From: a virus
DNA: 26,158 nt
IMG/VR virus record: IMGVR_UViG_3300025889_000834
Location: 1 to 26,158 of that record
Reading direction: 5' to 3' (one strand)
The notes beneath the pieces are model-generated. The model did no database searches. It was not told where the DNA came from and worked only from the letters and a program-made list of their open reading frames with translations. The position numbers were made by a program, and so were the translations under genes. The first letter of the stretch is position 1, and each line of letters opens with the position of its first letter. This document shows positions 4,758 through 26,158 of the stretch, piece by piece.

Positions 4758-7676
4758 ATGGCACTCGTAAACGGGCAGGAAATCGACTTACTGCCCACAA
4801 AGGGCATGCGGGACGAAGCCAAGCGCTACCGCGTCTGGAAACAGCAAGGCGAAGCCGGTGGTACGGAAGTAGCTGCTCGTCGCGCCACGCAAATCCTTAG
4901 CGGCGACGAACTTAGCCCCGAAACCGTACTAACGATGAACGCCTGGTTCGCCCGGCATGAAGTCGACAAGCAGGCGGAAGGATTCAGGCCTGGCGAGGAA
5001 GGTTATCCAAGTCCCGGTCGCGTGGCCTGGGCCGCATGGGGCGGCGACGCAGGAATGAGCTGGGCCGCTACAAAAGCGGAGAGCATAAAAAACTCCGCGG
5101 ATAGACTTATGCAAGCCTTGGCCGATTTTCCTATGGACGGACCACTCGACTTATATGAGTTGGATGAATCCGCCGTGGAGTTCGGTGAGCGTCCATATCC
5201 CAACGAGCATGCAGCCCGTCTGCGTGACCCTTCCCAGTACGAGCGTTTCCGCCGTGCAAACAATCGCGGTGGCGAGGGTGTGGATTTCATCTTCGGTATT
5301 AAGGAAGGAACTGCTGAGCTTCAGGCAATCCGCTTCAAGCTGAGCCGTTTCACTTCTGCTGAAGCACGTCAATGGCTAAGGGACAACGATTACACGCCCA
5401 TCCAGTTTGAACCCGCTACCAACGAGAAAGCTATGGATGCTGAACTCCAGCGTGCAGCGCCTGATGCGCTCAAGGAAGGTGACTTCGTTTCATGGGATAG
5501 CTCGGGCGGCAGAGCTCGTGGCCGCATCGAGCACGTGATGCGCGAGGGCACCCTCGGTGTTCCCGGCACCGAGTTCAGCATCAACGCCACCGAAGAGGAT
5601 CCCGCCGCCCTTATCCGCATCTACCGCGATGGCGAACCGACCGAAACGATGGTCGGCCACCGTTTCAGCACCTTGACCAAGATCGACGACATCCGTTCGC
5701 TCAAAGTCGAGATCAAGATCGAAATGGATGACAGCGAGGATGACTCCATGGAAGAGGAGGATGCGGAAGACGCCATGTCCATGGAAGATGAGCCCGCGGA
5801 TGAGGAAGAGCGCGCCCTGGCACGTGACCTCGAGGGCGGTAAGTACACACGTACCGAAGCCACCGAGTTCCGCAGCGTCAAGGCCCGCACTTTCGAGTTT
5901 CCCTTCAGCTCTGAGTATCCGGTGGCCCGCTACTTCGGCAACGAAGTACTTAGCCATGAGGGCAGCGCTGCGGATCTGACTCGTCTGAACGATGGGGCGC
6001 CCCTGCTGTTCAACCACAATCCCGACAAGGTTGTGGGCGTGGTGGAGCGTGCTTGGATCGACGAGAGCAAGCGCCGCGGTTACGCAAAGGTGCGTTTCTC
6101 GCGCAATAAGTTCGCCCAGGAAGTTCTTGACGACGTCAAGGACGGAATTTTGCGCGGAATTAGCTTCGGCTACGCCATCGAGAAGATGGAAGAGCGCGAC
6201 GGTGACTTTGTTGCAACTCGTTGGTCACCGCACGAAGTCTCGGTTGTAAGTATTCCGGCAGACCCCACAATTGGGATCGGGCGTTCATTACTTTCCCCGG
6301 AACCGATTATGGATGAGGTCTTGCAAGTCGCTGAGCCTAGTATTAGTGACGAAGTAGCTTCTCCCGCTGCGCAAGTAGAGGAAGAGGCAACGACACGCCA
6401 AGCGGCCGAAACCGCATCTATCCCCATTCCTGCAATGGAAGAAAACACCCCAGATCTGGAGGTGATCCGGTCCAAGGCCGCTGAGGCCGAGCGGACTCGT
6501 ATCGCCGCCATTTCCGCACTGGGCGCTAAGCACCAGATGCAAGACCTGGCTCGCGAACTCATCGACGGTGGTCGCACCCTCGATGAGGCTCGTGCTGCCG
6601 TCCTCGACAAACTCGGCTCTACTCCCGTGGAACAACCCATCCGTTCGACTGACGTCACCACCAACGACGTTGGCCTGTCTGAAAAAGAGACCAAGCGCTT
6701 CAGCTTTGTTCGCGCTCTGAACTACCTGGCCAACCCTGGCGACGCTTCTGCTCGTCGTTCGGCTGAGTTCGAGATCGAAGTTGGCGAAGCCGCCGCTAAG
6801 AAGTACGAGCGCTCCAGCAACGGCATCGTGGTGCCCAACGAGGTGCTGCGTCGCGATCTGGTGGTCGGCACCTCCACCGCCGGTGGCAACCTGGTTGCCG
6901 ACGAGCTGCTGTCCGGCTCCTTCATCGACCTGCTCCGCAACCGTCTTGCCCTGGCTCAAGCCGGCGTGACCATGCTGAGCGGCCTGCAGGGCAACATCAG
7001 CATCCCCCGTCAGTCTTCGGCCGCCACTGCTTACTGGGTCGGCGAGGGTTCCTCCCCCACCGAAAGCCAGCAGGCAATCGACCAGGTCAACATGACCCCC
7101 AAGACCGTGGGTGCTTTTGTTGACTACTCCCGCCGTCTGCTGCTCCAGTCCTCCATCGACGTGGAAGGCATGGTGCGCAACGACCTGGCCCGCGTGATCG
7201 CCCTCGAGCTTGACCGCGCCGCCATCTACGGCACCGGCTCTGCCAACCAGCCTCTGGGTCTGACCAACGTGACCGGTATCGGCACTCAGTCCCTGACCAG
7301 CTATGGCACCTTCGCCGAGTACATCGGCATGGAGACCGACGTTGCATCCGCCAACGCCGACGCCGGCTCGCTGCGTTACGTGGTGAACGCCGCTGCCCGT
7401 GGTGCGCTGAAGAGCACCGAGAAGGCAACGAACACTGGCATGTTCGTCTTCGAGAACAACGAGATCAACGGCTATCCCGCCATCGTCTCCAACCAGCTCG
7501 CCAGCAACGACGCACTGTTCGGCGACTTCTCGATGATGATCATGGGCATGTGGTCCGGTCTGGATCTGACCGTGGATCCTTACGCCGGTGCTACCGCAGG
7601 CACCGTCCGCATCATCGCCCTGCAGGACGTGGATGTGGCCGTCAAGCAGCCCGGCGCCTTCTGCTACGCCACCTGA
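4758..7676 (+). CDS. Capsid polyprotein: accessory modules, S78 prohead protease and HK97-type major capsid protein
   Basis: One 972-residue frame with five parts. (1) About 1-120: a phage module with PGEEGYPSPGRVAWAAWGGD. (2) About 130-220: a module with PYPNEHAARLRDPSQYERF. (3) About 237-310: an HVA1/TUDOR-like domain (GDFVSWDSSGGRARGRIEHV), then a strongly acidic linker at 324-352. (4) About 360-512: an HK97-type S78 prohead protease with catalytic His420 in LLFNH and Ser469 in GISFGY. (5) About 565-625: a charged helical delta/scaffold-like stretch, then the HK97-fold major capsid protein from about 640 to the end. In HK97 itself the protease and capsid are separate genes. The protease presumably frees the capsid subunit and removes the rest during head maturation. 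The frame is continuous; I saw no internal stop or frameshift. Confidence 0.93.
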   Translation: MALVNGQEIDLLPTKGMRDEAKRYRVWKQQGEAGGTEVAARRATQILSGDELSPETVLTMNAWFARHEVDKQAEGFRPGEEGYPSPGRVAWAAWGGDAGMSWAATKAESIKNSADRLMQALADFPMDGPLDLYELDESAVEFGERPYPNEHAARLRDPSQYERFRRANNRGGEGVDFIFGIKEGTAELQAIRFKLSRFTSAEARQWLRDNDYTPIQFEPATNEKAMDAELQRAAPDALKEGDFVSWDSSGGRARGRIEHVMREGTLGVPGTEFSINATEEDPAALIRIYRDGEPTETMVGHRFSTLTKIDDIRSLKVEIKIEMDDSEDDSMEEEDAEDAMSMEDEPADEEERALARDLEGGKYTRTEATEFRSVKARTFEFPFSSEYPVARYFGNEVLSHEGSAADLTRLNDGAPLLFNHNPDKVVGVVERAWIDESKRRGYAKVRFSRNKFAQEVLDDVKDGILRGISFGYAIEKMEERDGDFVATRWSPHEVSVVSIPADPTIGIGRSLLSPEPIMDEVLQVAEPSISDEVASPAAQVEEEATTRQAAETASIPIPAMEENTPDLEVIRSKAAEAERTRIAAISALGAKHQMQDLARELIDGGRTLDEARAAVLDKLGSTPVEQPIRSTDVTTNDVGLSEKETKRFSFVRALNYLANPGDASARRSAEFEIEVGEAAAKKYERSSNGIVVPNEVLRRDLVVGTSTAGGNLVADELLSGSFIDLLRNRLALAQAGVTMLSGLQGNISIPRQSSAATAYWVGEGSSPTESQQAIDQVNMTPKTVGAFVDYSRRLLLQSSIDVEGMVRNDLARVIALELDRAAIYGTGSANQPLGLTNVTGIGTQSLTSYGTFAEYIGMETDVASANADAGSLRYVVNAAARGALKSTEKATNTGMFVFENNEINGYPAIVSNQLASNDALFGDFSMMIMGMWSGLDLTVDPYAGATAGTVRIIALQDVDVAVKQPGAFCYAT

Positions 7677-24699: not shown

Positions 24700-26158
24700 A
24701 TGGCACCGCTTGGCAATCCGACTCCCCTGCTTCTTAGCCAAGCATCGCCGTACGAGATCAACCAGAGCCTGCGGTTTAACTCGGCGGATAGCGCATACCT
24801 GAATCGCACTCCGGCTAGCGCGGGGAATCGCAAGACGTGGACATGGAGTGGATGGGTAAAAAGATGCACATTTGGATCAGTCGATAATTGTCTATTTAGC
24901 GCCTATGGTAACGGCACTCAAAGCGCCGGCATCTATTTTTCTAATGATGTTCAAAACGATTCCTTAGAGGTTCGCTTTGGTCCGTATTCTGGTGGTTGGC
25001 AAGGTTATCTTGTAACGGCACAGGTTTTTAGGGATCCATCCGCTTGGTATCACGTTGTGTTTGCCGCAGACACGACACAGGCAACAGCAAGCGACCGGCT
25101 TAAGTTATATATCAATGGAACGCAAGTAACCACATTTAATTCAAGTGCGTATCCAACACAAAACACGGATGGTTTTTTAAATCAAGCACAAGAGCATCAA
25201 ATAGGCAGGCTTCAAGGCAGTACTTATTATCACAACGGCTACCTAGCCGAGGTCAACTTCATCGACGGCTCTGCGCTGACCCCATCATCCTTCGGTGAAA
25301 CCGACACCACCACCGGCGCATGGATTCCTAAGCGTTACAGCGGCTCCTACGGCACCAACGGCTTTTATCTGACGTTCGCTGATAACAGCGGCACCACCAG
25401 CACCACACTGGGCAAGGACAGCAGCGGCAACGGCAACAACTGGACGCCCAACAACTTCAGTGTCACCGCTGGTGCAGGCAATGATGTCCTGAGCGACACG
25501 CCGACGACAAACTGGTGCACCTTTAATCCGCTGGCTAACGCTTGGAGCAATTCTGGTACGGGTTCAGTTGCAGATGGCAATCTTTACCTGAGTTACTCCA
25601 GTGGTAACTGGTTCGGTAAAAAAGGCACAATGGCTGTGTCTTCAGGCAAATGGTATTACGAGTGGACCAATACCAGTGGCGGCACTTCTTCTCAATGTGG
25701 TTTTACTACGATTGAATCTGCATCAGAAAATAACAGTGGAGTTTATAGGTATCGCTCAGATGGCGACAAGATCAATACTTCGTACACTTCATACGCTGCA
25801 ACTTGGTCAACCGCTGGTGACATCATTGGTATCGCGCTAGACATCGACGCAGGTACGATTGTTTTCTACAAAAACGGCGTAAGCCAAGGCACAGCGTTTA
25901 GCAGCATCCCCGCAGGCACTTATATACCAGAGTGCGTCATAGAAGGAGCGGGTTATACGGGCTATGCAAACTTCGGACAACGCCCCTTTGCGTACACCCC
26001 ACCGACCGGCTACAAGGCACTGAACACCGCCAACCTGCCCGAGCCGACGATTAAGAAGGGGAGTAAGTATTTCGATGTGCTTACGTGGAGCGGTACTGGT
26101 GGAGGTAGCGGTGCAACACGATCACTGACCGGACTTGGCTTTTCTCCTGATCTCGTGT
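24700..26158 (+). CDS. Large adhesin with LamG and SPRY domains (partial, runs off window)
   Basis: Open from ATG 24700 (GAGG five bases upstream) for 486 codons to the window edge; the true 3' end is beyond. About 25-200 is a LamG/concanavalin A-like lectin domain (TWTWSGWVKR, KLYINGTQVTTF, GYLAEVNFIDGSALTPSSFG). About 236-262 has GKDSSGNGNNWTPNNFSVTA. About 290-440 is an SPRY/B30.2-like domain (SSGKWYYEWT, GIALDIDAGTIVFYKNGVSQ, FGQRPFAYTPPTGYKALNTA). From 450 a further module begins (KKGSKYFDVLTWSGTGG). Probably a virion adhesin that binds cell-surface glycans; the domains give the family, the ligand is unknown. Confidence 0.88.
   Translation, partial: MAPLGNPTPLLLSQASPYEINQSLRFNSADSAYLNRTPASAGNRKTWTWSGWVKRCTFGSVDNCLFSAYGNGTQSAGIYFSNDVQNDSLEVRFGPYSGGWQGYLVTAQVFRDPSAWYHVVFAADTTQATASDRLKLYINGTQVTTFNSSAYPTQNTDGFLNQAQEHQIGRLQGSTYYHNGYLAEVNFIDGSALTPSSFGETDTTTGAWIPKRYSGSYGTNGFYLTFADNSGTTSTTLGKDSSGNGNNWTPNNFSVTAGAGNDVLSDTPTTNWCTFNPLANAWSNSGTGSVADGNLYLSYSSGNWFGKKGTMAVSSGKWYYEWTNTSGGTSSQCGFTTIESASENNSGVYRYRSDGDKINTSYTSYAATWSTAGDIIGIALDIDAGTIVFYKNGVSQGTAFSSIPAGTYIPECVIEGAGYTGYANFGQRPFAYTPPTGYKALNTANLPEPTIKKGSKYFDVLTWSGTGGGSGATRSLTGLGFSPDLV

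Follow-up and report, generated by a model that had tools for sequence, protein, structure and literature searches.

In the lambda C/Nu3 system, a nested in-frame start inside the protease gene gives the scaffold. In phages Mu and PaMx73, an in-frame start within the protease open reading frame (ORF) yields a shorter, assembly-active product (PMC4378225). HK97 has an S78 protease, gp4, and a capsid protein, gp5, which carries a delta scaffold domain on its N-terminal side; these are the products of two separate genes (PMC10275583). The joining of S78 protease, delta domain and capsid protein in a single frame is an already known family, phrog_617. Its fusions in R4C, RcCronus, VP882, phiHAP-1, Mica and S-LBS1 occupy the same position after the portal gene, and the head of roseophage R4C is a T=7 shell with 415 copies of the capsid protein (PMC10276861). 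In the literature searched, which was confined to papers outside subscription, we found no description of a nested start in this fusion family.

Here we describe a member of phrog_617 encoded in a 26 kb virus record (IMG/VR IMGVR_UViG_3300025889_000834); "the window" denotes this whole stretch of DNA, 26,158 nucleotides in length. As in HK97, an S78 protease is combined with a delta domain N-terminal to the capsid protein, but here they form one frame with no stop between them. As in Mu I/Z and lambda C/Nu3, there is a conserved in-frame start codon between the protease and the assembly domain. Unlike in those systems, the putative short product is the delta-capsid protein itself and not a scaffold alone, i.e., the locus is a variant of that arrangement and not a member of it. 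From comparisons among related sequences, we consider it likely that 4758-7676 comprises two nested in-frame genes, one encoding a long form that joins N-terminal modules, protease and capsid protein, and the other a delta-capsid form.

Organization of the long open reading frame

The ORF is one uninterrupted frame of 972 codons (972 amino acids), and lies in a lambda-type head operon with the gene order terminase large subunit (GpA type), portal (PF05136), the 4758-7676 ORF and tail genes. Its parts are listed in Table 1. The preliminary description of this DNA, made from the sequence alone, had proposed two small phage modules (here A and B), a Tudor-like domain (T), an acidic linker, an S78 protease, a delta domain and a capsid protein, in that order, and Pfam, PHROGs and the relatives of the ORF bear this out. 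A sequencing error joining two genes, which that description had named as grounds for rejecting its reading, is ruled out: A, B, T, S78, delta and the major capsid protein (MCP) share one ORF in many viral contigs. Further along the window, the ORF at 24700-26157 runs off the contig end and contains an SPRY domain (PF00622, 7e-13), which is unexpected for a phage tail region.

Table 1. Features of the 4758-7676 locus in the window, and module H in relatives.
Feature	Position	Strand	Remarks
Long ORF of 972 aa (riders A, B and Tudor; acidic linker; S78; delta; HK97-fold capsid protein)	4758..7676	+	
Rider module A (WAAWGGD type, residues ~12-105)	4791..5072	+	part of phrog_2859; helical by prediction
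Rider module B (PYPNEHAARL type, residues ~145-222)	5190..5423	+	without known family; model confidence moderate to low
Rider module T, Hva1_TUDOR / SH3-like barrel (residues ~235-312)	5460..5693	+	PF11160; AF2 model
Acidic linker (residues 319-372)	5712..5873	+	conservation poor
Peptidase S78 domain (residues ~373-515), His420 and Ser469	5874..6302	+	Pfam, PHROGs
Synonymous-constraint peak, codons 548-593	6399..6536	+	
Hairpin GCGG(C)..(G)CCGC, 5' of internal ATG	6402..6415	+	compensatory changes among relatives
Putative nested gene for the 413-aa delta-capsid short form, from ATG 6435 (Met560)	6435..7676	+	Met560 conservation, codon step, SD elsewhere
Delta/scaffold domain (residues 560-708)	6435..6881	+	
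GGAGGTGATC, 10-base complement of 16S 3' end	6458..6467	+	23 bases 3' of ATG
Mature HK97-fold capsid protein (predicted)	6882..7673	+	homology with PDB 8gta
Module H in relatives	L041:3072-4220; L033; L045; L078; L165; L090 (ORF at 5509, aa 778-858)		

In Pfam, Phage_capsid matches residues 709-971 (6e-44, above cut-off) and Peptidase_S78 matches residues 408-504 (2e-9; 38.2 bits, cut-off 21). The catalytic His420 and Ser469 are at the positions given in the preliminary description, and Glu493 is a candidate third residue. Matches to BRX and Cwf_Cwc_15 scored below cut-off and were ignored. The phrog_617 profile ("major head protein") matches residues 373-971 end to end (3e-163), aligning them with positions 22-621 of the 626 in the family; the protease-capsid fusion in a single frame, also claimed earlier, is thereby established. 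Dulem virus 34 was considered as a two-gene relative and rejected: although the proteases are related, the distance between the capsid genes is too great for a single family.

The nearest solved relative is the R4C capsid protein (8gta, E = 5e-53), whose solved chain starts at R4C residue 362 of 629. The equivalent position here is residue 709. This chain start is consistent with cleavage of the capsid precursor by S78 in the prohead, and it would place the mature N-terminus at about residue 709; the range given earlier, roughly residues 620 to 700, would then be slightly too low.

A conserved internal ATG between protease and delta

Relatives of the ORF were collected in three sets: the window's own family and two others, for which RcCronus and CRP-811 served as the respective queries; the set obtained with R4C as query has some contigs in common with the window's family. 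An ATG is present in the S78-delta linker of all 255 of the 255 ORFs that have both S78 and delta. In 74 of 80 CRP-type ORFs this ATG is preceded by a Shine-Dalgarno (SD) sequence of -6 kcal/mol or lower, a strength reached before 2.6% of the other in-frame internal ATGs that served as control. The corresponding figures for the reference phages are 9 of 14 and 4.1%, and examples are found in R4C (tcGGAGGacgcaATG), CRP-811 (aAGGAGaacactATG) and VP882 (agAGGTGcagaaATG). The SD-bearing linker peptides vary between lineages, so constraint on the protein is an unlikely origin of this nucleotide signal.

The window differs from these lineages in having no such ribosome-binding site before the proposed nested start, and within its family just 10 of 81 ORFs have an SD of -6 kcal/mol or lower at any linker ATG. 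The candidate start is Met560 (ATG 6435), which is found in 42 of 43 non-redundant relatives of the window's family, and also in S-LBS1 and S-CBS3. The linker Met has residue number 189 in R4C and 409 in S-CBS3. There is no SD at this ATG in the window (duplex energy +2.9), and close relatives are alike in this respect. Thus, the case for initiation in the window rests on the conserved ATG, the flanking structure and the codon statistics. An alternative ATG, Met518, is also available and is kept in only a few relatives.

In two relatives the long frame is broken while the delta-capsid part is intact. In CRP-823 (L084, 4340-7268), module A is cut off from the remaining frame by an insertion of one base relative to CRP-821, and the pieces are annotated as two major capsid proteins. 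In L222, an in-frame stop occurs near 2368, within S78. Either break could be a sequencing error.

Codon usage, synonymous constraint and RNA structure at the ATG

Codon usage changes at this point. In the window, Nc is 49.5 in the N-terminal part, 45.1 in S78 and 33.0 in delta plus MCP. Length-matched Nc drops 3' of the linker ATG in 229 of 232 ORFs across three sets (77/77, 75/75 and 77/80), as well as in 13 of 14 reference phages, with a median difference of 9-12. When 223 other ORFs of similar size were halved as a control, the median difference was -0.4, and 1.8% exceeded 9. In five other phages, whose protease-type and capsid genes are separate, the two genes differ by 5.7-10.2. For the three sets, the likelihood estimate places the change point at +6, +2 and +6.5 codons relative to the ATG, with a spread that is narrow in the window's family and wide in the CRP and R4C sets. 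Base composition is ruled out as the source of the step in the CRP set, whose parts all have a median GC3 of 0.49. In comparisons with the window, delta plus MCP has a dS some 2-4 times lower than S78, while dN is similar. Part of the codon bias could date from a time when the capsid gene stood on its own.

Synonymous sites are also constrained around the ATG. Within codons 548-593, many codons are 0.8-1.0 identical across the window's family, versus 0.42-0.54 upstream, and the peak is seen again in the overlapping R4C-query set. An overlapping gene in another frame is ruled out as its cause, as between codons 546 and 600 the other frames are interrupted by stops in 43-73 of the 73 sequences. 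In the CRP set there is no such peak around the ATG, as would be expected if the CRP start uses a short SD instead.

A hairpin precedes ATG 6435 by about 20 bases, and by 20-30 or more in relatives. In the alignment, 94% of cells are paired, two pairs show compensatory change, and the covariation score was reached in none of 500 shuffles; the hairpin is also found in S-LBS1 and S-CBS3. The ATG itself is flanked by an A/C-rich leader and, downstream, by a predicted stem at 6461-6506. The 3' part of GGAGGTGATC, which is nearly invariant in relatives, lies inside this stem, and no start codon follows GGAGGTGATC at a suitable spacing. A search of Rfam matched no known structured RNA. A scan of the ORF for promoters of the sigma-70 type found none.

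Two proposed nested products and the alternatives

Translation from 4758 would give the long form, consisting of the head-internal riders, S78, delta and capsid protein; delta and capsid are included because no stop intervenes. At the ratio of long to short form that we infer, this would be a minor product, which would carry the protease and riders into the prohead, with its own capsid domain as the anchor to the shell. Initiation at the internal ATG 6435 would give an abundant 413-residue delta-capsid precursor, the equivalent of HK97 gp5. This short form would build the shell, and the protease would then cut near residue 709 to yield the mature subunit. Nesting of this kind would be a simple way for a phage to avoid one protease per capsid subunit filling the prohead. 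By the same reading, database gene counts and capsid stoichiometry for protease-fusion capsid genes are probably wrong.

With an inner radius of 20-22 nm assumed for a T=7 prohead, 415 copies of the 704 N-terminal residues would take up 87-116% of its interior, whereas 415 delta domains together with 60 long forms, a number that is likewise assumed, would take up 28-38%. This estimate speaks, as a plausibility argument only, against every capsid subunit carrying riders and protease.

The preliminary description had read the ORF as a single polyprotein. If so, each capsid subunit would be made with riders and protease, and it is the protease that would free them during or before assembly. The frame is indeed open in most relatives, contains no sigma-70-like promoter, and is annotated in isolates as one major capsid protein. 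However, the conserved internal ATG is preceded by an SD in other lineages, codon usage and dS both step at the ATG, with no such codon step in the 223 control ORFs, and the volume estimate is contrary. Taking the linker ATG, the SD of relatives, the codon step and the synonymous peak together, an internal start, which the preliminary description had itself named as grounds against its reading, is strongly indicated; we consider a true single polyprotein improbable, and the corollary that one copy of each module is delivered per capsid subunit is left unsupported. Another reading accepts the codon step and constraint and attributes them to RNA structure or to an old fusion, with no internal initiation today. 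The predicted stem at 6461-6506 and the hairpin at 6402-6415 would fit such an origin, but dS is low along all of delta and MCP, well beyond the stems, and SD motifs persist at the linker ATG while the linker peptide varies. We regard this explanation as very improbable.

The short form might instead, or in addition, come from an embedded promoter or a processed transcript, of which the hairpin would be the 5' stem. That the hairpin is conserved and covarying, some 20-30 nucleotides upstream of the ATG, and that the window's family lacks an SD, both lend weight to this possibility; the negative promoter scan, which covered the sigma-70 type only, weighs against it, and in other lineages the SD is enough to explain initiation. 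On balance, we judge an embedded promoter or processing to be unlikely, and favor an internal ribosome start on the transcript of the long form.

Rider modules and their carriers

The unusual part of the ORF is its N-terminal ~370 residues. A counterpart is missing from most phrog_617 isolates; it is present with A and B in the Synechococcus phages S-CBS1 and S-CBS3, and with A plus T or B in the CRP roseophages. The domain search that the preliminary description had proposed for this part returned Hva1_TUDOR (PF11160) at residues 241-287 (5e-6; 26.9 bits, cut-off 24.1) and phrog_2859, a family of unknown function, which covers residues 10-105, i.e., module A. For residues 1-364, AF2 at first gave a poor model (pLDDT 59), and its PDB search was uninformative. 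A second model, with CRP-type rows added, was usable for A and T; its PDB search gave nothing at E <= 0.001. Module T is modeled as a confident beta-barrel, with pLDDT above 90 over most of its length, and its PDB matches to Tudor/KOW are weak.

In close pairs, most dN/dS values of A, B and T fall in the range 0.01-0.15, which denotes purifying selection. Profile searches of the fetched loci distinguish 12 architectures before S78: none (39), A-T (77), A-B-T (58), A-H-B-T (29), B-T (11), A (4), A-B (4), T (2), H (2), and one each of H-B-T, B and A-T-B, counts that are not independent because some contigs were fetched twice. Module H is an extra four-cysteine module that some 30 relatives have between A and B, and matches the high-potential iron-sulfur protein 3h31 (E = 3e-4). 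One relative (L081) has no A, B or T, yet its S78, delta and capsid parts are 83-92% identical to those of the window. Being under purifying selection and mosaic among relatives, the modules are real, maintained and exchangeable cassettes.

Module A also occurs on other head proteins. It is found on the portals of HATV-3 and HRTV-4, on proteases of the S78 type in phiPsal1 and of the XkdF type in DC31, on a protein of DSL-LC01 whose annotation is capsid maturation protease, and on protease-position proteins of HGTV-1 and Vibrio 1.214, whose similarity to DUF2213 is weak or sub-threshold. When the fold predicted for residues 1-321 was compared with viral models by structure search, the names retrieved were mainly prohead proteases, XkdF and portal proteins. 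Thus, the common carrier of module A is a protease or portal, not a capsid protein. Given that an internal start is indicated, the extra modules are most likely part of the protease-bearing long form, and the riders are most likely exchangeable cassettes that accompany the protease, as they do on the separate proteases and portals of other phages. As to function, we think it most likely that they are protein- or nucleic-acid-binding parts of the head interior, either broken down at maturation or ejected together with the DNA. Modules of this set, which includes one that is HiPIP-like in relatives, are shared by several types of internal head protein across the tailed viruses of bacteria and archaea.

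More tentatively, and with somewhat less than even confidence, we suggest that the whole fusion family may build its heads from two nested products. The long product would be a general cargo port for riders (A, B, Tudor, and the HiPIP-like four-cysteine domain), which would be loaded because the protease that bears them includes a capsid domain. For the cyanophage-like branch, the start would be an RNA-structured, SD-less element.

The long form resembles the head-delivered polyvalent and MuF proteins in being multi-domain, in having exchangeable modules and in its place in the head operon (PMC5512222). It differs from them in that neither Pfam nor PHROGs recognized an effector enzyme in the 972-residue chain. 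That the riders are injected counter-defense effectors of this type is nevertheless suggested by a Nodularia phage minor head protein (L094:3419-5017), in which Hva1_TUDOR and module A are fused to an InPase domain, a domain described in polyvalent proteins (PMC5512222), and by the presence of riders on portal-, protease- and MuF-type proteins. On the other hand, A, B and T contain no enzymatic or known effector domain, many relatives have no riders, and polyvalent proteins are reported to be scarce in cyanobacteria and archaea (PMC5512222). An effector role for the riders is therefore doubtful in our view.

In three relatives (L143, L162 and L180), A and B are replaced by another N-terminal cassette (MHDLTEEQVAAIGETVAEVVAEHM..., probably helical). 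Module H is also present on the DSL-LC01 protein mentioned above.
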